In this document: piece after piece, positions 12,576-21,963 of the stretch
How the letters are laid out: every line of letters begins with the position of its first letter
Position numbering within the stretch: position 1 is the stretch's first letter
Assembly (NCBI GenBank): GCA_947449015.1
Contig: CANFQA010000020.1
Span: forward strand, 1 to 45,233
Reading direction: 5' to 3'
Length of the DNA: 45,233 bases
DNA from: Microthrixaceae bacterium
GTDB taxonomy: Bacteria; Actinomycetota; Acidimicrobiia; Acidimicrobiales; Acidimicrobilacustridaceae
Made by a program: the position numbers and the translations under genes
Notes under the pieces: generated by a model
What the model was told of the DNA's origin: nothing
Seen by the model: only the letters and a program-made list of their open reading frames with translations
Database searches by the model: none

Positions 12576-13547
12576 CTACGCCGCTTCGGGATCGGCAGCG
12601 TCATTGCCGCTCGACAGTTTCTCGGCGTACTCGTGCTCGGCCAGACCGGTGATTGCCCACCCCAGCGTGCGCACGATTGCTCGGGCGGCGGGTTGGACCA
12701 CCAATGGGTCGATGCCCGGCAGGACTGGAAGCCGCAGAGCCCGACGGGCTTCGGTGGGCAGCAGTGCAATAGCAGCAGGTGCAAGGACGCCATAGGCCGG
12801 ACGAACCGCAACCGGAATCGGAGGGAACAGCAGCCAACGCGCAGCATCGCGGCCCTGCTTGCCGACGGTGAGTTCTGGACGCATGCGCTCAAAGTACGCA
12901 CGCAGTTCAGCGACCGAATGTGCTGGCGGTTCACCATCGAGCAGTTCGTTGATGATCGCCATCTCGTCGACGTACTGATCAGCCTCCGCTGCGGTGAGCG
13001 GCGTGGCGCCATAGCGTTGGTAGGCGGTGAGAAAGCTGTCGACTTCGGCGTGGTGGACCCAGGAGATGAGGTGGGGGTCTGAGGCGCTATAGGAGCGACC
13101 ATCCGGTGCGGTGCCCACGACCTTGGTGTGGACGCGCTTGACGATGGCGGCTGCCTGGTGAGCCTGCTCGGTAGTGCCGAAGGTCGTGGTGGCCACAAAC
13201 TGGCTGGTGCGGGCCAATCGCGCCTCGGGATGGTGGCGATAATCGGAATGGTCAGCCACGCCAGCCATGGCCAGTGGGTGCATGATCTGCAGCAGTAGGG
13301 CACGGATGCCGGCGATCAGCATTGAGCCGTCGCTATGAACTCGCCAGGTCACGCTGTCGGGACCGAACAGGCCCGGGTCGCCCTCGATGGGGCCGACCAG
13401 ATCGCGAATTGGCTCGCCGTCTCCGGCGATGAATCCACGCAGGCCACGGCCCAACTGCACCCGGAACTGCTGGACCACCGCATCGATGGCTTCCCCAACA
13501 GCCGGCGCCGTCGACGGGGACGATGATCCTGACAGTGGGGAACTCAT
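12576..13547 (-). CDS. Oxygenase MpaB family protein (DUF2236)
   Basis: The 323-residue protein is a member of the DUF2236 family, which includes fungal MpaB and latex-clearing rubber oxygenases, thought to be b-type haem proteins. It shows the family order: DSVTWRVHSDGSMLIAGIRALLLQ-type text near 70-90, the RLARTSQFVATTTFG region containing the conserved Arg and Thr, and SWVHHAEVDSF with the likely haem histidine. No signal peptide is visible, so it is probably cytoplasmic. The ATG at 13547 is used; a TTG two codons earlier is possible. A GACCG-TT-CGGTC inverted repeat lies 14 bases upstream. Substrate unknown. Confidence 0.85.
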   Translation of the reverse strand: MSSPLSGSSSPSTAPAVGEAIDAVVQQFRVQLGRGLRGFIAGDGEPIRDLVGPIEGDPGLFGPDSVTWRVHSDGSMLIAGIRALLLQIMHPLAMAGVADHSDYRHHPEARLARTSQFVATTTFGTTEQAHQAAAIVKRVHTKVVGTAPDGRSYSASDPHLISWVHHAEVDSFLTAYQRYGATPLTAAEADQYVDEMAIINELLDGEPPAHSVAELRAYFERMRPELTVGKQGRDAARWLLFPPIPVAVRPAYGVLAPAAIALLPTEARRALRLPVLPGIDPLVVQPAARAIVRTLGWAITGLAEHEYAEKLSSGNDAADPEAA

Positions 13548-13560
13548 GGTCAAAGGTTAG

Positions 13561-13639: not shown

Positions 13640-13775
13640 GACACAACTCAACTCCTCGCTGTGGGGGAAGCCGGTCGAACTCCGGCGCTGACCCGCAACC
13701 GTAGGCACAGACCCCAACGACAGGTTGCTGGGGCACTGGCGAGCCGGACTGCCCGCTGCGAGGTGGTGCTCCACT
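13640..13775 (+). promoter_or_regulatory. Cobalamin (AdoCbl-type) riboswitch
   Basis: The core matches the B12 riboswitch. GGGGAAGCCGGT starts near 13664, followed by a paired ACTCCGGC and the highly conserved box CTGACCCGCAACCGT at about 13688-13702. A GGGGCACTGG segment and the GCGAGCCGGACTGCC junction lie at about 13738-13753. CCTCGC at 13654-13659 pairs perfectly with GCGAGG at 13758-13763 to close the element. A TAGTGT at 13631-13636 could be a -10 box, with no clear -35. It sits about 110 bases before a cobalamin-uptake-type operon, fitting feedback control by the imported vitamin. The exact boundaries and the cobalamin form recognised are inferred. Confidence 0.92.
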
Positions 13776-13842
13776 GTCAACCGTCGTCGGATTACGGGAG
13801 GTGGGGCTCGGTTCCCTGCGGAGGACGTTTCCCCGTCGTGGT

Positions 13843-13875
13843 CTCGGGTCCATCTGCTGACCGACCCCCGAGGAA
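13843..13875 (+). promoter_or_regulatory. Hairpin covering the Shine-Dalgarno of the B12 operon
   Basis: CTCGGG at 13843-13848 can pair perfectly with CCCGAG at 13867-13872. The second arm overlaps the Shine-Dalgarno sequence GAGGAA (13870-13875), which lies six bases before the GTG at 13882. With no T-tract in the leader, this suggests that the riboswitch acts on translation by hiding the ribosome-binding site. The alternative pairing that would free it has not been worked out. Confidence 0.5.
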
Positions 13876-13881
13876 CCGCTC

Positions 13882-14796
13882 GTGCCCCACACCAACGATC
13901 CGACCACCATCGCTGCGGTCACCGATCACCGCAGATCGGTGTTGTCACGGTGTCGCGCCTGGTCGGTGTTGGTTGGTTCGTTGCTGATGCTGGTTGCATC
14001 GTCGATGGTGCCGCCGTCGGCATCGGCTTCGGTGACGAGCTGCGCTGCAGCCACGGCCGGATTGGCTCGCGTCGTTGTGGTGGTCGACCGGGGCGAGGGC
14101 GATGTTTCTGTGGTCTGTGTCGTGGTGCCCCGTGGGTCCACCGGTTCGCAGGTACTTGCTGCACGCGCCGCGCAGTTGGGTGCGGCGGTCCCCTCACATG
14201 CCGGTAGTGGCCTGCTGTGCACCATTGATTCGTTCCCCTCCTCAGGCTGCGCCGAGACGGCCAGCGGGTCCTACTGGGCCAACTTTTCCGGCACCACTGG
14301 CGAGTGGGCCTACAGCAACTACAACCCGTTCATCCGCCGGGTGTGCGACGGTGATGTGGAGGGTTGGCGCTACGTCGTGCATGGCAGTGGATCCGCCGTT
14401 GATGCTTTGCCCCGCATCAACGCCGATTCGGTCGCTGTGGCCAATGCGTGGGGATGCAACGAGCCAGAAGATTCGCGGAGTGCTGGCACTGGTTCTGATG
14501 CGGCCTCGTCATCGGCGGTTGGTGCTGACACTGACACAACAATCCTCCCGACGCAGGTGGTGCCCGAGAGCGAAAACGTTGATGGTTCCGGTGTCGTCGG
14601 AACTGACGGTCGGCCCAGCGCCGATGCAGGAGCGAACGTTGACGGTGCGTACGCCGGCAACGCTGTGGTGGTCCCGACCGGAACTGTGCCGCCGTCTCAG
14701 TCGGCCTCGACGTCATGGATCGGAGTCCTCAGCGCAGGTGTGCTGATCACCGCACTCGGTACCGCGGCGTTCGTGCGATCACGGCGGGCCTCATGA
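13882..14796 (+). CDS. Secreted membrane-anchored protein resembling the transcobalamin C-terminal domain (DUF4430-like)
   Basis: The 304-residue protein begins with a signal peptide (hydrophobic about 28-46, possible cleavage after PPSASA near 50). It continues with a globular domain at about 50-200 and a Ser/Thr/Pro/Val-rich linker, and ends in a membrane helix (about 278-297) with an RSRRAS tail. It should stand outside the cell, fixed to the membrane. The domain has a VVVVVDRGEG strand, GSTGSQVL, LLCTIDSFPSSGC, SYWANF and DGDVEGWRY. That order resembles DUF4430, the transcobalamin C-terminal-like domain; six cysteines may form disulfides. The riboswitch and ECF genes suggest that it binds cobalamin or passes it to the transporter. 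The alpha-barrel half of true transcobalamin is absent. It overlaps ecfT by ATGA. Confidence 0.7.
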   Translation: MPHTNDPTTIAAVTDHRRSVLSRCRAWSVLVGSLLMLVASSMVPPSASASVTSCAAATAGLARVVVVVDRGEGDVSVVCVVVPRGSTGSQVLAARAAQLGAAVPSHAGSGLLCTIDSFPSSGCAETASGSYWANFSGTTGEWAYSNYNPFIRRVCDGDVEGWRYVVHGSGSAVDALPRINADSVAVANAWGCNEPEDSRSAGTGSDAASSSAVGADTDTTILPTQVVPESENVDGSGVVGTDGRPSADAGANVDGAYAGNAVVVPTGTVPPSQSASTSWIGVLSAGVLITALGTAAFVRSRRAS

Positions 14797-15944
14797 CGGT
14801 TCTGCACCAGCAGAGTGCAGCGAGGCGCAGACGCGAGGCTCGACCGCGACGCATGCTTCATCCCGGGGCATGGTGGATTTGGGCGACGACGTTGGCCGCG
14901 GCTGCATTGCGAACCACGAATCCTTTGCTGCTTGGACTCATCGTCGCCGTGGTGGCGTTTGTTGTTGCGTCCCGACGCACCGACGCACCGTGGTCCCGCT
15001 CGTTCGGGAGTTTCTTGCGCATCGGTGCGTTCGTGATCACCATCCGGGTCGTCTTTCAGATGTTGTTCGGCGTGCGTCTCGATGGAACCACGCTTTTCAC
15101 CCTTCCGTCAGTCACGCTTCCATCTTGGGCTGCTGGGGTGAGCCTCGGTGGTCCGGTCACGCTCGAGGCGCTTGTGGGCGCCGCCTATCAGGGACTGCGC
15201 CTTGCGGTTGTCATCGCCTGCTTCGGGGCGGCATCTTCGCTGTGCAGTCCCTATCGGATGCTGCGGGCCCTTCCTTCAGCGCTCTATGAGGCTGGTGTCG
15301 CCATCACGGTTGCGCTCACCTTTGCCCCGCAGGCCATGATCGCGTCCCGACAGGTACGCGATGCCCGACGGCTTCGTGGCCGGGCCGAGCGCGGTCCGCG
15401 GGCGTGGGTCGGTTCCGCGATGCCTGTGCTCGAAGGGGCACTCGAACGATCAGTGGCGCTGGCTGCATCGATGGATGCACGCGGGTACGGCCGCCGCGGC
15501 GCTATTTCGGTGCGCACACGTCGAGGTGTTTCGATGCTGATGCTCATCGGTCTCGGAGCGGTTGCCGTTGGCTCCTATGGCCTGCTCGATGAGTCAGCGC
15601 CGTCGATCCTTCGCATGCCGCCCTTTGCGTTCGGCGCGGTTGCTCTGGCGCTCGCGCTCTACCTCAGCGGTCGAGGCGCGGAGCGCACCCGATATCGCGC
15701 GGATCGATGGCTTGCGCCGGAGTGGCTGGTCTCGCTAAGTGGCCTTGCTGCGCTTGGTGCCATGGTTGTGGCCGGTCGACATGGTGCTGCACTTGACCCG
15801 TCGATCTATCCCTTGGCTGTTCCGGCACTGGTGCCGGTGCCTGCCATCGGCATTGCGGTGGCAATGCTCCCGGCCTGGTGTGCACCCCGTCCACCTGCAC
15901 TCGCGTCACTCGAGACAATCACGCATTTCGAGGTGGCCGCATGA
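14793..15944 (+). CDS. ecfT: ECF transporter transmembrane coupling protein (EcfT/CbiQ family)
   Basis: EcfT couples ATP hydrolysis in the EcfA domains to movement of the substrate-binding S component. The 383-residue protein has several hydrophobic helices (about 20-70, 85-110, 130-165 and 245 onward) and a cytoplasmic coupling region. That region carries two Ala-Arg-Gly-type motifs, DARRLRG near 190-200 and MDARGYGRRG near 225-235, the hallmark contact sites for the ATPases. Extra C-terminal helices make it longer than a minimal CbiQ. Start ATG 14793 overlaps the previous stop (ATGA), and the stop overlaps the next start in the same way. Cobalamin is the likely cargo from the riboswitch; other corrinoids are possible. 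Confidence 0.88.
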   Translation: MTVLHQQSAARRRREARPRRMLHPGAWWIWATTLAAAALRTTNPLLLGLIVAVVAFVVASRRTDAPWSRSFGSFLRIGAFVITIRVVFQMLFGVRLDGTTLFTLPSVTLPSWAAGVSLGGPVTLEALVGAAYQGLRLAVVIACFGAASSLCSPYRMLRALPSALYEAGVAITVALTFAPQAMIASRQVRDARRLRGRAERGPRAWVGSAMPVLEGALERSVALAASMDARGYGRRGAISVRTRRGVSMLMLIGLGAVAVGSYGLLDESAPSILRMPPFAFGAVALALALYLSGRGAERTRYRADRWLAPEWLVSLSGLAALGAMVVAGRHGAALDPSIYPLAVPALVPVPAIGIAVAMLPAWCAPRPPALASLETITHFEVAA

Positions 15945-17566
15945 TCCGCTTCGATCACGTTTCATTCACCTATCCCGACGCAGATGTCCCCACTCTCATC
16001 GATGTCGATTTCATCGTTCCCGAGGGTGAGTTGTGTCTCGTCGTCGGAGAGACCGGTTCGGGCAAGTCCACGCTTCTGCGAGCAGTCAACGGTCTGGTCC
16101 CGCGTTTCTCCGGCGGTCTGCTCACGGGTGTGGTCACCGTGGGTGGTCGCAGCACCGCACAGGTGCCACCGCGCGAACTAGCCGATGTGGTGGGAATGGT
16201 GGGGCAGGATCCAGCTGCAGGTTTCGTGACTGATGTGGTTGAGGACGAGCTTGCCCACGTCATGGAAAATCTCGGCGTCGCTCCCGATGTGATGCGACGC
16301 CGGGTCGAAGATGTCCTTGATCTGCTGGGCCTCCACGAACTGCGCAACCGACCGCTGTCCACGCTCTCGGGCGGTCAGCAACAGCGTGTGGCCATTGGTT
16401 CGGTGCTTACCGCCGGGCCCCGAGTGCTGGTCCTCGACGAGCCCACCTCGGCGCTCGATCCTGCCGCAGCAGAAGAAGTCCTGGCCGCAGTCACCCGCCT
16501 CGTGCACGATCTCGGTATCACGGTGCTTGTTGCTGAGCACCGTCTTGAACGAGTCGTGCAATATGCCGATTCGGTGGTGTTCGTTCCCGGTGATGGTTCG
16601 CCAGTGGTCATTGGTGATCCCAGTGCGGTGCTCTCTGGATCCCCCGTGGTGCCGCCGGTGATCGAGCTCGGACGTCTCGCAGGATGGTCACCGATGCCGC
16701 TGTCGGTGCGCGACGCTCGCCGCGCATCGGCCCCGCTGCGTGAGCGCCTCGCCCCCTTGCGACCTCCGCAGCCCGCCGAGGCTGCTGCGGGCGATCTTGT
16801 GGCTCAGGTCAGTGGATTGCAGGCCACCTACGGGTCTCTCACGGCGCTCTCGGGGGTCAATCTCGAGGTGCGCGCCGGCGAAGTCGTCGCTCTCATGGGT
16901 CGCAACGGAGCGGGAAAGTCAACGCTGCTCAACCATCTCGTTGGCCTTCGCGCTCCCCAGCGCGGCACCGTACGCGTCTGCGGCGCGGAGCCCCATCGGC
17001 AGTCCGCTCGGGACGTCATCCGGTCAGTCGGTCTTGTTCCCCAGGACAACGGAGTGCTGCTTTATCACGACACTGTGGCCGCCGAATGCGTCGCCGCTGA
17101 CCGTGACGGCGATCTCGCTGCCGGCACCACCCGGGCAGTCCTCGATCGTCTTGTACCGGGCATCGATCAGCGTTCCCATCCGCGTGATCTCTCCGAGGGG
17201 CAGAGGTTGGCGCTCGCACTGGCCATTGTTCTCGGGGCCGAGCCGGCGCTCGTGCTGCTCGACGAACCCACGCGCGGACTCGACTATGCGGCCAAGCAGC
17301 GACTTATCGCCATGCTGCAGATGCTTGCATCAGAGGGTCGATCCGTACTGCTCGCCACACATGATGTTGAGGTTGTGGCCTCGGTTGCTCATCGCGCCAT
17401 CGTGCTGGCCGAGGGTGAGGTCGTCGCCGATGGTGTCGCCCGCGATGTCGTTGTTCACTCACCGGTCTTCGCCCCACAGATAGCCAAGGTGCTCGCGCCC
17501 GAGACCTGGATGAACGTGGACGAAGTGCGTGCCGCGCTTGCCACCCTCGAAGGTCCGTCGCAATGA
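15941..17566 (+). CDS. ecfA: ECF transporter ATPase, two fused EcfA domains
   Basis: The 541-residue cytoplasmic protein contains two complete ABC ATPase domains in one chain. The first has Walker A GETGSGKST (G36-T44), signature LSGGQQQR and Walker B VLVLDEPTSALD. The second has GRNGAGKST, signature LSEGQR and LVLLDEPTRGLD. It replaces the separate EcfA1 and EcfA2 subunits and would power the neighbouring EcfT and S component. The altered second signature (LSEGQ) suggests the two sites may not be equal. Start ATG 15941 overlaps the ecfT stop, and its stop overlaps the S-component start, so the proteins are made in step. Confidence 0.93.
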   Translation: MIRFDHVSFTYPDADVPTLIDVDFIVPEGELCLVVGETGSGKSTLLRAVNGLVPRFSGGLLTGVVTVGGRSTAQVPPRELADVVGMVGQDPAAGFVTDVVEDELAHVMENLGVAPDVMRRRVEDVLDLLGLHELRNRPLSTLSGGQQQRVAIGSVLTAGPRVLVLDEPTSALDPAAAEEVLAAVTRLVHDLGITVLVAEHRLERVVQYADSVVFVPGDGSPVVIGDPSAVLSGSPVVPPVIELGRLAGWSPMPLSVRDARRASAPLRERLAPLRPPQPAEAAAGDLVAQVSGLQATYGSLTALSGVNLEVRAGEVVALMGRNGAGKSTLLNHLVGLRAPQRGTVRVCGAEPHRQSARDVIRSVGLVPQDNGVLLYHDTVAAECVAADRDGDLAAGTTRAVLDRLVPGIDQRSHPRDLSEGQRLALALAIVLGAEPALVLLDEPTRGLDYAAKQRLIAMLQMLASEGRSVLLATHDVEVVASVAHRAIVLAEGEVVADGVARDVVVHSPVFAPQIAKVLAPETWMNVDEVRAALATLEGPSQ

Positions 17567-18417
17567 CGACGTCGATCGAAACGCGCGTCAGTCCTCGCTC
17601 TGGTACCGGTGTCGTTCCGTTACGTCGTCGTGCCACAGCACTTCTGCTCGCCGCATCCGCCCTCGGAGTGGTGGCATTTGGTTGGCCGTTGTTCGCGAGC
17701 CGCTCCAGCGCCGTTGATCTCGCTCATTCTGGCGATGCGCCATGGATCTTTGTGCTTTTGGTCCCGCTCCTGCTGGGTGTACTGCTCGCCGAACTCGCTG
17801 ATGGGGCACTCGATGCCAAGGCCATCGCCTTGCTTGGCGTGCTTGCGGCATGTGGAGCGGCGCTACGCCTTCCCAGTGGTGGGGTCGCCGGTTTCGAGCC
17901 GGTGTTCTTCCTGCTCGTGCCCGCCGGCAGGGTTCTGGGCCGTGGCTTCGGGTTCGTACTCGGTGCACTCACCTTGTTCGTCTCGGCGCTGCTCACCGGA
18001 GGTGTCGGGCCATGGCTGCCGTTCCAAATGTTCGGGGCGGCATGGATCGGGTTTTTCGCCGGCTGCCTGCCACCGCTGCGCGGTCGGGCTGAAGTCATCA
18101 TGGTCGCTCTGTACGGCGCCATCGCAGCACTGGCCTACGGGCTGGTGCTCAATCTGTGGTTCTGGCCATTCGCCACCGGCACATCATCATCGGTCTCGTT
18201 CGTTCCCGGTGCTGGTCTGCTCGACAATCTCAGCCGGTTCTGGGCATTTCATCTCACGACCTCGCTGGGTTTCGATCTTCCTCGGGCGGTGTTCACTGCG
18301 CTGTTCCTTCTGGTGGCGGGCCGTCCCATCCTCGGTGCCCTGCGTCGGGTGTCACGTCGCGCCGCGTTCGGTGCTGCCGTCGTGTTCGAACCAGCGAGGG
18401 AGCCAACGCCATTATGA
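17563..18417 (+). CDS. ECF transporter substrate-binding (S) component, probable cobalamin type
   Basis: The 284-residue protein is very hydrophobic, with about six membrane helices (near 25-45, 60-80, 85-105, 115-145, 150-205 and 220-255). The segment GRGFGFVLGALTLFVSALLT followed by GGVGPWLPFQMFGAAW is characteristic of actinobacterial ECF S components found with cobalamin riboswitches. It would bind the vitamin and toggle in the membrane with EcfT. A long N-terminal arm with arginines precedes helix 1. Start ATG 17563 overlaps the EcfA stop (ATGA). Cobalamin specificity comes from the riboswitch and neighbours, not from identified binding residues; cobinamide or another corrinoid is possible. 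Confidence 0.82.
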   Translation: MTTSIETRVSPRSGTGVVPLRRRATALLLAASALGVVAFGWPLFASRSSAVDLAHSGDAPWIFVLLVPLLLGVLLAELADGALDAKAIALLGVLAACGAALRLPSGGVAGFEPVFFLLVPAGRVLGRGFGFVLGALTLFVSALLTGGVGPWLPFQMFGAAWIGFFAGCLPPLRGRAEVIMVALYGAIAALAYGLVLNLWFWPFATGTSSSVSFVPGAGLLDNLSRFWAFHLTTSLGFDLPRAVFTALFLLVAGRPILGALRRVSRRAAFGAAVVFEPAREPTPL

Positions 18418-19388
18418 ACGCCGATGTGTTTGTCACCCGTCCGCTGCCGGAGCCAGGCGTGAGCCTGCTCGAAGCTGCTGGATTCACGACACAGGTCAAT
18501 CCTCAGGATCGACCCATCACGGCAGATGAACTCTTTGCTGGCGTCGCATCTGCTCGAGCGTTGCTGTGCATGCTGACCGATCGAGTCGACGCTGAACTGC
18601 TCGATGCAGCACCGAACCTGCGGGTCATCGCCAATTACGCAGTTGGCTTCGACAACATCGATATCGCTGAAGCGCGCAGTCGCGGCATCGAAGTCACGAC
18701 TACCCCCGATGTGCTCACTGAGGCCACCGCGGACCTCACATGGGCGCTGCTGTTAAGCGCCGCCCGACAGATCGGCGCCGGGGAACGCCTCATCCGCAGT
18801 GGGCAATGGCATGGCTGGGGCCCCACGCAGCTGCTCGGGCAACCGGTTGCTGGTCGGGTGCTTGGCATTGTTGGCATGGGGGCTATTGGCCAGGCGGTTG
18901 CCCGTCGGGCGCAAGGCTTTGGTATGGCCATTTGTTATTTCAATCGAAGCCGACTTGATCCGGCACTCGAATCCTCGCTGGGCGCTCGCTATGTGTCGCT
19001 GGAAGAACTGCTCATGATCTCCGATGTGGTCAGCCTGCACGCGCCGCGCAATGCCGAGAGCCATCACCTCATCAATGCGGAGGCGCTTGCACAGATGAAG
19101 CCCACCGCAATTCTGGTGAACACCGGACGCGGAACCCTGATCGACGAGATTGCATTGGTCGAAGCATTGCGCAATGGCGTGATTTCTGCGGCAGGACTCG
19201 ATGTGTTCGAACGTGAACCTGAACTCAGTGCTGGTCTCATCGAACTCGACAATGTTGTCCTCGCACCGCACCTTGGCTCGGCGAGTGTTGATGCCCGAGC
19301 GTCCATGGTGCGCCTCTGCACCGAGAACATCATCGAAGTGCTCGCAGGGCGACCAGCGATCACTCCGGCGCCCAGCGTTACTCGCTGA
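18414..19388 (+). CDS. D-2-hydroxyacid dehydrogenase (glyoxylate/hydroxypyruvate reductase-like)
   Basis: The 324-residue protein reduces 2-keto acids such as glyoxylate or hydroxypyruvate with NAD(P)H. The catalytic domain halves flank a Rossmann domain with GIVGMGAIGQAVARR near 147-161. The conserved arginine is in NTGRGTLID, the acidic residue lies in FEREPEL, and the catalytic histidine is in APHLGSAS. The order and length fit the GyaR/GhrB group. The ATG at 18414 overlaps the S-component stop (ATGA), so it is translated as the last gene of the B12-riboswitch operon, an unusual place for this enzyme. Its 3' end overlaps the convergent SDR gene by 11 bases. Confidence 0.9.
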   Translation: MNADVFVTRPLPEPGVSLLEAAGFTTQVNPQDRPITADELFAGVASARALLCMLTDRVDAELLDAAPNLRVIANYAVGFDNIDIAEARSRGIEVTTTPDVLTEATADLTWALLLSAARQIGAGERLIRSGQWHGWGPTQLLGQPVAGRVLGIVGMGAIGQAVARRAQGFGMAICYFNRSRLDPALESSLGARYVSLEELLMISDVVSLHAPRNAESHHLINAEALAQMKPTAILVNTGRGTLIDEIALVEALRNGVISAAGLDVFEREPELSAGLIELDNVVLAPHLGSASVDARASMVRLCTENIIEVLAGRPAITPAPSVTR

Positions 19389-20358
19389 GGTACGCCGAGG
19401 TTCGTTCCTCGCACCAGGACCACAGCCGGTAACGCTCCCCGGCCGGCGTGTTGGTCCACGGGAAGCGACTGGTACTGCGTCGGCGCCGGTCGAGCCAGAG
19501 ACCGCCGCTGGCGCCAAGATCGGTTGCCGGTGCGCCGGCCAACCACAAAATCGTGTCCGCGCCCGCGGCCGCATCGCGCAGAAGGGGTCGGGTGAAGCGA
19601 TGGAATGTGGGGAGTGAGTCGACCACGCCGGGAGTGTCGGCCCAACCCGGATGCATGGTGTGGAACGCCAGTGACGGCCCGATGCGGCGAGACCATTCGG
19701 CGGCCAGTTCAACCTGCGCCCGTTTGGCCCGGGCGTAGGCGCGCACCCCGTTGTAGTTCTCCGCTCCCATTTCGAGATCGGCCACCGAGAGCCGCTCGGC
19801 GTACATGCCGCCACTGGTCACGGTGATCACCCGACCGCCATGGGTTGATGCTCGCAGAGGATCCAGCAACAACTGGGTGAGCAGGAACGGACCAAGTACC
19901 TGCGCTGCCACGGTGATCTCGTATCCCTGAGCCGACAAGGTGTACTGGTTGGAAAGAGCACCAGCGTTGTGGACCAGTACGTCGATTGTGTCGTGGTTAA
20001 CACGGATCTCTTGGGCGAGCCGGGACACGTCATCGAGGTTCGAGAGATCAGCGATGCTCGCAGTTGCATCGATTGAGACAGCCTGGAGTTGCTCGAGAAC
20101 CTTTGCGACCCGGTCGGGATTGCGGCCGACAAGATGCAGCGTGGCCCCGAGTTCGCCCATCCGCGTGGCGGCTGCGAGACCGATCCCGGAGGTGAATCCG
20201 GTGAGCACGATCACATGCCCATCGAGACGTGGCATTTCTGCTTGGTCCCAGCCCATCAGGTTGCGTCGGATATCGAAACCGATCCGACTCCAGCTCGGGG
20301 CAACGGTCAGTTCGAGAATGGAGTCAACGGCGTTGGCGAGCGGGGATCGCTCGCTCAC
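19378..20358 (-). CDS. Short-chain dehydrogenase/reductase
   Basis: The 326-residue protein is an SDR of the extended/WW-oxidoreductase-like kind. A 40-residue N-terminal extension (including WSRIGFDIRRNLMGW) precedes the NAD(P) motif TGFTSGIG. NAGAL follows, then the catalytic serine in VTSGGMYAE and the YARAK active site (Y-x3-K). Such proteins act on lipid-like or retinol-like alcohols and ketones; the substrate is unknown. Start is GTG 20358, overlapping the stop of the upstream B12-binding regulator by four bases (GTGA). The two are thus co-translated, and the SDR is a candidate output of that regulator. Residues for catalysis appear intact. Confidence 0.85.
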   Translation of the reverse strand: MSERSPLANAVDSILELTVAPSWSRIGFDIRRNLMGWDQAEMPRLDGHVIVLTGFTSGIGLAAATRMGELGATLHLVGRNPDRVAKVLEQLQAVSIDATASIADLSNLDDVSRLAQEIRVNHDTIDVLVHNAGALSNQYTLSAQGYEITVAAQVLGPFLLTQLLLDPLRASTHGGRVITVTSGGMYAERLSVADLEMGAENYNGVRAYARAKRAQVELAAEWSRRIGPSLAFHTMHPGWADTPGVVDSLPTFHRFTRPLLRDAAAGADTILWLAGAPATDLGASGGLWLDRRRRSTSRFPWTNTPAGERYRLWSWCEERTSAYLSE

Positions 20359-21191
20359 GACCGTGTCCGAAGAGGTTTGACCGACAGTTCCTCAAATGCT
20401 TCGAGCATCGAAGCGGAACTGAGAGACACAACATCGGCACCGCAGGCACGACTCTCGGGGCCAACGGCGCCCCCGCCGAGGACGACTGCGCAGCCGACAT
20501 CGGTGTGGATGAGTTCAATGGTGTCCTCAATGGCAGCTTCATTCTCGCTGCGTGTGACACAGATGCCCGCACCGACGAGATCATCGGCGGTTCCAAGCGC
20601 ATCAAGGAACGACTGCGGCGGAGAGTTGGCACCGAGGTCGATGACGTTGAATCCCCGACCGCGCAGGAGATCGCCGGCCATTGCGCTGGGCACCGAATGG
20701 TGATCGCCCTGGGGTGCGCCGATGACGATGGTTCCGCGTTTGCGTCCGGGACGATTGAATCGTGGGCCGAGACGGCCGATGATGCGTTGGGTGACCACCG
20801 ATGCGCGGTGCTCCTCGGCCACAGTGACGCGACCTTGAGCCCATTCGCTGCCGATGTGGGCAAGGGCGGGTGCGAGGACCTGCAGATAGATATCCCCGGG
20901 CTCTGTGCCGGAACTGAGGGCGGATTCGATGACGCTCCATGCCCCGTTCTCGTCGCCCACCATGAGTCGATCCTCAATGCGCTGGTGATAGGGCGCCCTT
21001 GGGGTGCGTCCCGCCGGCGCAGGCGCACTGGCAGCAGACATGAACGCCGCGAGATCAGCTGATGACAATCGCCATTCGCCGCCAACCTTGATCGCATCGA
21101 GTCGCCCAGTGCGGACATAGCGATAGGCAGTCATGTAGTGAACGCCGAGTTTCTCGGCAGCTTCGTTGAGGGTGATCGACTCGCCAGCCAT
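20355..21191 (-). CDS. B12-binding transcriptional regulator, CarH-like light sensor with excisionase-type HTH
   Basis: The 278-residue protein has three parts. Residues about 6-51 form an excisionase/BldC-like helix-turn-helix (LNEAAEKLGVHYMTAYRYV, then GGEWRLSSADL). Residues about 68-148 form a four-helix bundle of the B12-binding-2 type. Residues about 153-270 form a Rossmann B12-binding domain. In the bundle, W117 is followed after nine residues by E127-H128, the W-x9-EH signature of CarH-type photoreceptors. GDHH at 162-165 aligns with the E-x-H lower-ligand motif. The family holds AdoCbl in the dark as a DNA-bound tetramer that light breaks apart. Start ATG 21191 follows GAGGTGAC. The MerR-type DNA-binding head of classical CarH is absent. 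Confidence 0.85.
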   Translation of the reverse strand: MAGESITLNEAAEKLGVHYMTAYRYVRTGRLDAIKVGGEWRLSSADLAAFMSAASAPAPAGRTPRAPYHQRIEDRLMVGDENGAWSVIESALSSGTEPGDIYLQVLAPALAHIGSEWAQGRVTVAEEHRASVVTQRIIGRLGPRFNRPGRKRGTIVIGAPQGDHHSVPSAMAGDLLRGRGFNVIDLGANSPPQSFLDALGTADDLVGAGICVTRSENEAAIEDTIELIHTDVGCAVVLGGGAVGPESRACGADVVSLSSASMLEAFEELSVKPLRTRS

Positions 21192-21258
21192 GTCACCTCG
21201 CTTCCAGCCGGGGGGAATGATGCTGCAGGGAACGTAGCCCCGCACCCGCCCCGAGGCC

Positions 21259-21963
21259 CTATCGGGCGGACAAGTCGCTGAAATGGGGGTTTTCGCCGGG
21301 TCGGAGGCGGTTGAGGACCGCCGGTACCGACGACAGCACATCCACGTCGAGATGTGCCTCGAGCCAGTCCCGATTACGACGATGAAGATCCTCGGCGGGA
21401 TCGAACCGGTTCAGCACAACGATTGGGGTGGCGACATGCGAGCCCCGGTCGATGGCCTCAAGACTCAGTCGGACGGAGTTGATCGTGCCGAGGCCGGCAT
21501 CGGCTACAAGCAGCACGAGATCGGGCTGGAGCTCTTCAATGAGTGAGATGGCATCTCCGTCGACGGCATGGGGGGAGCGAACCCCGCCTGCGCACTCGAC
21601 CATGGCGATATCGGGAGCGGGCAGTGGCCAGGAGATCTCAGCGGCGAGCTCGGCGATGGTGAATGGTGCTCTGCCGAGCGCATCAGCGGCCATGGGCGGG
21701 GCCATCGGGATGGGGAACCATCGATGCCGTGGACACACGTCGGTGACTTCTTCCCCGGTGGCATTGCTCAGGTGGTGTGCATCAGTGGCGGAGTCATCGG
21801 GAGAGAACGACTGCGCGGGTTTGCGCGCGGCAACGCTGAACCCCTCGGCCCGAAGTTCGCGCAGTAGCCGGGAGGCCACCCAGGTCTTGCCGATTTCAGT
21901 CGCAGTGCCGACGACGACAATGAGGCGGCGAGGACGGGACGGAGAGTACGGAGATGCAGACAT
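21259..21963 (-). CDS. bioD: Dethiobiotin synthetase
   Basis: BioD closes the ureido ring of dethiobiotin from 7,8-diaminopelargonate, CO2 and ATP. The 234-residue protein has the P-loop GTATEIGKT near 19-27, the KPAQSF segment that binds substrate, a VECAGG motif, and VLNRF late in the fold. The second glycine-rich region is normal. The ATG at 21963 shares one base with the bioF stop, and the gene is third in an A-F-D row. bioB, the final sulfur-insertion step, is not in the window. Confidence 0.93.
   Translation of the reverse strand: MSASPYSPSRPRRLIVVVGTATEIGKTWVASRLLRELRAEGFSVAARKPAQSFSPDDSATDAHHLSNATGEEVTDVCPRHRWFPIPMAPPMAADALGRAPFTIAELAAEISWPLPAPDIAMVECAGGVRSPHAVDGDAISLIEELQPDLVLLVADAGLGTINSVRLSLEAIDRGSHVATPIVVLNRFDPAEDLHRRNRDWLEAHLDVDVLSSVPAVLNRLRPGENPHFSDLSAR

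Follow-up and report, generated by a model that had tools for sequence, protein, structure and literature searches.

The window analysed here, 45,233 nucleotides of contig CANFQA010000020.1 from a Microthrixaceae bacterium (assembly GCA_947449015.1), carries a cobalamin riboswitch followed by a row of genes for a predicted extracellular, membrane-anchored protein and for an energy-coupling factor (ECF) transporter (Table 1). We propose, at a probability of roughly 70%, that a transcobalamin-like B12 receptor is split in this organism and supplies the ECF transporter: one half is encoded in this operon, and the other is a predicted secreted alpha/alpha-barrel protein encoded behind a second riboswitch match on another contig of the same genome. 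Direct support comes from the predicted folds, the two riboswitch matches, the gene order, the co-occurrence of both halves, the fused versions found elsewhere and the B12 enzymes of the host. That B12 is the ligand, that the alpha and beta halves form a complex, that the ligand is handed to the transporter and in which direction the regulation runs are what we infer.

A predicted anchored beta domain and an ECF transporter

Hydrophobic segments lie at both ends of the first protein of the operon, with a highest 19-residue hydropathy of 1.75 at the N-terminus and of 2.08 at the C-terminus, where RSRRAS follows; this agrees with the signal-peptide-bearing, membrane-anchored protein proposed in an initial annotation made from the letters of this stretch. 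Its predicted layout comprises a signal peptide, a beta domain at about residues 56-184, a linker and a C-terminal anchor, placing the domain outside the cell. A Pfam scan of the protein listed no family. An AlphaFold2 model of residues 48-192, built from 30 aligned relatives (out of 50 listed canonical beta domains), reached a mean predicted local distance difference test score (pLDDT) of 89.4. In a Z-scored structure comparison, rows 1-14 for this model were all transcobalamin, haptocorrin or intrinsic factor (Z 12.2-12.9, with 98-102 residues aligned at a root-mean-square deviation of 1.8-2.2), followed by structure 3u7z from Ruminococcus gnavus in row 15 (Z 11.4) and by the first unrelated structure in row 16 (Z 6.6). 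The top rows of a Foldseek search of the PDB were mostly transcobalamin as well, together with haptocorrin, an isolated transcobalamin beta domain and 3u7z; the best E-value was 5.6e-4 and the remaining transcobalamin rows ranged from 1.9e-3 to 3.9e-2. As such, the modelled domain is predicted to have the beta-domain fold of the transcobalamin/intrinsic factor family, and the predicted fold confirms the likeness to the transcobalamin C-terminal domain that the initial annotation had read from short motifs.

The riboswitch of the operon is the sole gathering-level Rfam match within the window, and the 2.38 Mb assembly has just one other RF00174 match at E<=0.001. Downstream, the four genes between 13882 and 18417 are joined in a row, each start overlapping the preceding stop as ATGA. 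EcfT matches the CbiQ family PF02361 at E=2.4e-4 and 21.2 bits, under the cut-off of 25, and EcfA contains two ABC_tran stretches (Pfam), with TIGR04521 (ECF_ATPase_2) as its best NCBIfam model at 295 bits, under the cut-off of 330. For the S protein by itself, neither Pfam nor NCBIfam listed a match, but 10 of the 16 aligned S members match PF12822 (ECF_trnsprt; best 5.4e-11), and relatives of the S component reach 89-90% identity. Judged by sequence, these genes thus form a transporter set of EcfT, two EcfA domains and S, with EcfT and EcfA under the curated cut-offs and S assigned through its relatives. Riboswitch, overlapping gene row and transporter had all been read in this way in the initial annotation.

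The same arrangement recurs in relatives. When genome contigs were searched with the S component, 80 loci were obtained, and gene order was counted in the 59 whose sequence upstream of EcfT exceeds 1.1 kb. The short loci L001-L043 were replaced by 16-kb regions. The position of EcfT and the order of the operon are conserved, and a beta domain is present in 56 of these 59 loci, with a barrel in the same locus in 36. Forty of the 80 loci, picked for upstream room, were checked for the riboswitch by coordinates and strand, and 35 have a cobalamin-riboswitch match upstream of the first operon gene on the correct strand. Conservation of gene order, which the initial annotation had proposed looking for, was therefore found. 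Three ECF loci with upstream room (L101, L103 and L139) have no beta domain that we could find.

With regard to the host, both MetH and methylmalonyl-CoA mutase score over their cut-offs. No match in the window genome (completeness 96.9%) was obtained for MetE (PF08267), for CbiC (PF02570) or for FecCD (PF01032), the permease family of BtuC; the uptake routes BtuM and BacA were not searched. From its gene content, the host looks like a B12 user that depends on import and has no BtuCD-type route.

These data bear on what the transporter might carry. The specificity of the S component is not readable from sequence, and five of the 16 aligned members match the riboflavin S family PF07155 (best 2.1e-10), as would suit the import of another vitamin or metabolite with B12 acting merely as a regulator. 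We consider this barely plausible, given the riboswitch matches at most loci checked, the transcobalamin beta fold, and a genome with MetH that has neither a MetE nor a FecCD-type permease match. Cobalt ECF importers are known riboswitch targets, and with its weakly CbiQ-like EcfT the operon could in principle be a CbiMNQO-like cobalt importer that supplies B12 synthesis and is riboswitch-controlled for that reason. Yet CbiM is absent from the families listed for the aligned S members, and a cobalt importer would leave the transcobalamin-type domain unexplained; because there is also no match for CbiC, an enzyme of de novo corrin synthesis, we have set aside this very unlikely idea. Finally, there is a slim chance that the system imports cobinamide or mixed corrinoids instead of cobalamin itself, as the excerpted text of PMC5997447 reports that CbrT, BtuF and the human carriers are promiscuous and accept both compounds, cobalamin as well as cobinamide.

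A barrel gene behind a second riboswitch match

According to the initial annotation, only the counterpart of the C-terminal half of transcobalamin was present. This holds for the window, but the genome also has a barrel gene behind its second cobalamin-riboswitch match on another contig. The N-terminal domain of transcobalamin is an alpha/alpha-toroid, and our search of relatives placed an alpha/alpha-toroid gene upstream of the beta gene in many Actinobacteria. The barrel profile derived from this family matched the window genome at G000:C5:54254-55243 (E=4.2e-83), within a signal-peptide-bearing gene whose product we regard as the counterpart of the N-terminal half of transcobalamin. By hydropathy, this barrel is hydrophobic near its N-terminus, and no such segment is seen at its C-terminus. 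The surface anchors of barrels vary among relatives and include S-layer homology domains, cell-wall-binding repeats and weak LPXTG and LAVTG sortase-type motifs (L062 9275-10840, L061 4454-7282, L063 8084-9592 and L119 3943-5181). About 1 kb from the barrel locus of the window genome lies a tandem glycine riboswitch (L044 6731-6953, minus strand).

A barrel was found in all 11 beta-positive genomes examined, and in seven of them (the window genome G000 and G053, G155, G180, G095, G127 and G192) it lies away from the beta-ECF operon. In these split genomes, a riboswitch match is found upstream of the beta gene in seven of seven cases and upstream of the barrel in six, at 169-241 bases from the barrel match; the remaining barrel, that of G155, is cut off by the end of its 7917-base contig. 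In G000, G053, G127 and G180, the matches at the barrel and at the beta gene are the only two in the genome. G022, which is split by contig, was kept outside these riboswitch counts. Across 198 genomes of the order, with thresholds of E<=1e-20 for the barrel and E<=0.001 for the beta domain, the barrel occurs in 24 and the beta domain in 30, and every barrel genome also has the beta domain. Fisher's test, with no correction for phylogeny, gives p=1.2e-25 when genomes are counted and p=8.8e-19 when genera are.

Moreover, barrel and beta domain share one open reading frame (ORF) in L061, L089, L097, L131 and L135, with alpha before beta in L061, L097 and L131 and beta before alpha in L089 and L135. 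In L131, an anchor-like stretch separates the two domains, and the fusion that most cleanly resembles transcobalamin is thus L097.

In animal transcobalamin, a single cobalamin is held between the two domains, and we propose that the bacterial pair works in a similar manner. Both riboswitches would switch off their genes when B12 is plentiful, as is the expected direction, and would thereby control the secreted barrel as well as the window operon with its anchored beta domain and ECF transporter. Barrel and beta domain would then enclose one cobalamin and deliver it to the S component, to be imported at the expense of ATP. As the barrel of the window organism has no C-terminal hydrophobic anchor, it may collect its ligand in soluble form and then dock on the anchored beta domain.

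Several observations weigh against the proposal of a split B12 receptor. PF14478/DUF4430 matched none of the 30 beta domains (Pfam, E<=0.1), and for this reason the resemblance to transcobalamin rests on predicted fold; a beta-domain profile compared with PDB sequences gave no transcobalamin, its eight matches being at chance level. Sequence-level membership of DUF4430 or Cobalamin_bind was accordingly dropped, as there was no significant match and the link was seen by fold comparison only. Compared by sequence with solved S components, including CbrT, the S component had no match at E<=10. At the barrel locus of the window genome, the riboswitch match has a well-preserved core and falls just under both gathering scores (30.8 bits for RF00174, and 43.8 against 50 for the adenosylcobalamin model RF01482); among the six barrel-locus riboswitches of the split genomes, four lie under the RF00174 gathering score and two over it. 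Five of the 40 named loci checked have no riboswitch match upstream, and neither do G072 and G167, which possess barrel and beta domain and were kept out of the split set, since other beta copies adjoin the barrel or face it at a contig end. Six of the 30 beta genomes have no barrel match at E<=1e-20.

The barrel model calls for similar caution. A joint alpha-plus-beta alignment was discarded for prediction because barrel C-termini were misaligned with beta domains, and the barrel was modelled alone. The model is that of a relative (L072), 36% identical to the window-genome barrel, and not that of the window genome itself. It forms a toroid (pLDDT 92.1), a generic fold for which squalene-hopene cyclases score highest (Z 26.8). 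Transcobalamin is not within the best 50 Z-scored rows listed for it, which we do not take as exclusion, and is among its Foldseek matches at rank 27 (E=1.9e-5), with squalene cyclases ranking higher. Matches of the barrel profile to PDB sequences include squalene cyclases and complement C3d, with no transcobalamin among the best 60 of 78. In an alignment of 22 barrels, limited to canonical ones, PF01122 matches two (best E=0.047) and PF13243 matches 17, and all six barrel-only proteins tested gave weak to clear matches to squalene-cyclase or prenyltransferase families. DxDD is the motif of class II terpene cyclases; because it is absent from 22 of 22 aligned barrel rows, the idea of an active terpene cyclase was set aside.

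It could be argued that the operon encodes a B12 ECF importer in which the beta protein alone serves as an anchored B12 chaperone, and that the barrel, also regulated by B12 and exposed at the surface, has a different job, for example in wall attachment or as an enzyme. The separate genes in the window's own family, the 23 of 59 loci without a barrel (some of them with little upstream DNA), the beta genomes without a barrel match and the closeness of the barrel fold to terpene cyclases would all fit. We nevertheless judge this explanation unlikely, as every barrel genome has a beta domain, both halves have riboswitch matches in the six assessable split genomes, fused forms exist and the cyclase motif is missing. 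The split receptor, in turn, can be put to a genetic test, with its two halves at two loci of one organism and each behind a riboswitch match.

Known B12 carriers and uptake systems

Animal transcobalamin, intrinsic factor and haptocorrin share with the bacterial pair the beta-domain fold, the alpha/alpha-barrel partner (on one ORF in five loci) and the predicted extracellular location. Unlike these carriers, the window genome has separate genes, so that the family trait of both domains in one polypeptide is not found in it, and it combines an anchored beta part with riboswitch control and an ECF pump; furthermore, there is no significant sequence-family match, and the barrel is nearer to squalene cyclases. 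Actinobacterial two-domain binders of the transcobalamin type might be ancestral relatives or even the source of the animal family, with the window family using a diffusible barrel collector that docks on an anchored beta domain to feed the ECF transporter, but we put this forward tentatively and think it more doubtful than not. Convergence on a shared architecture may also account for the likeness. If true, the system would give the human B12 carriers a counterpart in bacteria and would make their origin testable.

To our knowledge, ECF transporters are normally thought to catch their substrate by the membrane S component alone, and a B12-riboswitched extracellular pair would, if confirmed, add a receptor layer to ECF transport. 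Our literature search found no soluble carrier plus receptor for ECF transporters and no description of this barrel/beta pair, an earlier prediction in Rodionov et al. 2009 being possible. According to the excerpted text of PMC5997447, ECF-CbrT is the B12 transporter of Lactobacillus delbrueckii, with its gene in an nrdJ-cbrS-cbrT-pduO cluster. Both systems are ECF transporters, and here a dedicated EcfT-EcfA-S set stands in one operon with a transcobalamin-like protein. In the excerpts of PMC9963975, a DUF4430 gene adjoins rtpR in L. rhamnosus and a table entry reads 'Additional lipoprotein component of putative cobalamin ECF transporter', which would seem to refer to one and the same kind of protein. 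Among the DUF4430 proteins of lactobacilli and of Ruminococcus gnavus, that of the latter (3u7z) is close to the beta domain in fold; no barrel partner is described for such proteins in those excerpts, and the actinobacterial proteins lack a PF14478 match. Short teleost Tcn-like proteins made of DUF4430 appear in the excerpted text of PMC4350170, and that of PMC2667541 does not mention such proteins.

Joint circular permutation and neighbouring genes

In Streptomyces, Nanopelagicales and others, the second half of the beta domain comes first, and the barrel is likewise permuted: it begins at about model position 100-120, continues to the model end and then resumes from the model start up to about 118-135. 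Of 100 rows, made up of 99 loci plus the window, 43 could be scored for permutation in both domains, the other 57 being without a complete barrel, beta domain or both. Both domains are permuted in 20 of these loci and neither in 23, with no mixed case, and the state of the two thus agrees in 43 of 43. On a tree of S components built by a quick method, the beta order changes three times, and the well-supported branches force no more than one change. A tandem duplication was considered as a common origin of both permutations, but no simple single event yields alpha(C-N)-beta(B-A). To find both domains circularly permuted together in a single lineage is unusual in evolution.

The permuted forms are the NCBI families SCO2321 (barrel) and SCO2322 (beta), for which the present analysis, if correct, suggests a function. 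In Streptomyces atratus, the barrel reaches 555 bits on SCO2321_fam (NF053823) and the beta domain 232 bits on SCO2322_fam (NF040672), both over the cut-off, whereas the barrel and beta domain of the window genome reach 88 and 52 bits, both under it. These models describe the circularly permuted form and the window has the transcobalamin order; SCO2322_fam accordingly matches the first protein in two pieces of swapped order, model positions 7-62 at 14269-14439 and 62-142 at 14032-14259. In a Kribbella-type clade of S components with eight loci (L100, L105, L109, L118, L120, L123, L124 and L133), the beta gene is permuted and there is no barrel within the locus.

Table 1. Features of the window operon and of the barrel locus (C5, another contig of the window genome G000)
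Feature	Position	Strand	Basis
Cobalamin riboswitch aptamer RF00174	13642..13774	+	36.2 bits vs gathering score 31.5
Transcobalamin beta-domain-like, predicted extracellular protein, 304 amino acids	13882..14796	+	Predicted fold, hydropathy, SCO2322_fam in pieces
EcfT, transmembrane coupling subunit	14793..15944	+	CbiQ PF02361 below cut-off; position conserved in relatives
Fused EcfA, two ATP-binding cassette (ABC) ATPase domains	15941..17566	+	PF00005 x2; TIGR04521/TIGR04520 best, below cut-off
ECF S component (predicted substrate-binding membrane subunit)	17563..18417	+	Assigned through relatives
2-Hydroxyacid dehydrogenase, possible operon member	18414..19388	+	PF02826 2.8e-60
Second cobalamin-riboswitch match, 241 bases before barrel match	C5:53887-54013		RF00174/RF01482 covariance models
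Signal-peptide alpha/alpha-barrel gene	G000:C5:54164-55324		Barrel profile

The 2-hydroxyacid dehydrogenase gene at the end of the operon shows the same ATGA overlap with the S gene, and 12 near-relative loci have a homologue next to their S gene; it has no obvious connection to B12. Further downstream, on the minus strand at 20355-21341, a regulator combines an excisionase-type DNA-binding domain with a B12-binding domain (PF02310, over the cut-off) and scores 56.7 bits on the CarH family model, far under the cut-off of 400. Because its homologues are found near the operon in 11 other loci, a B12-sensing regulator may belong to the operon neighbourhood. Divergent from the riboswitch operon, an MpaB/rubber-oxygenase-like protein (PF09995, 5.3e-62) is encoded at 12576-13553 on the minus strand, with homologues in nine relative loci.

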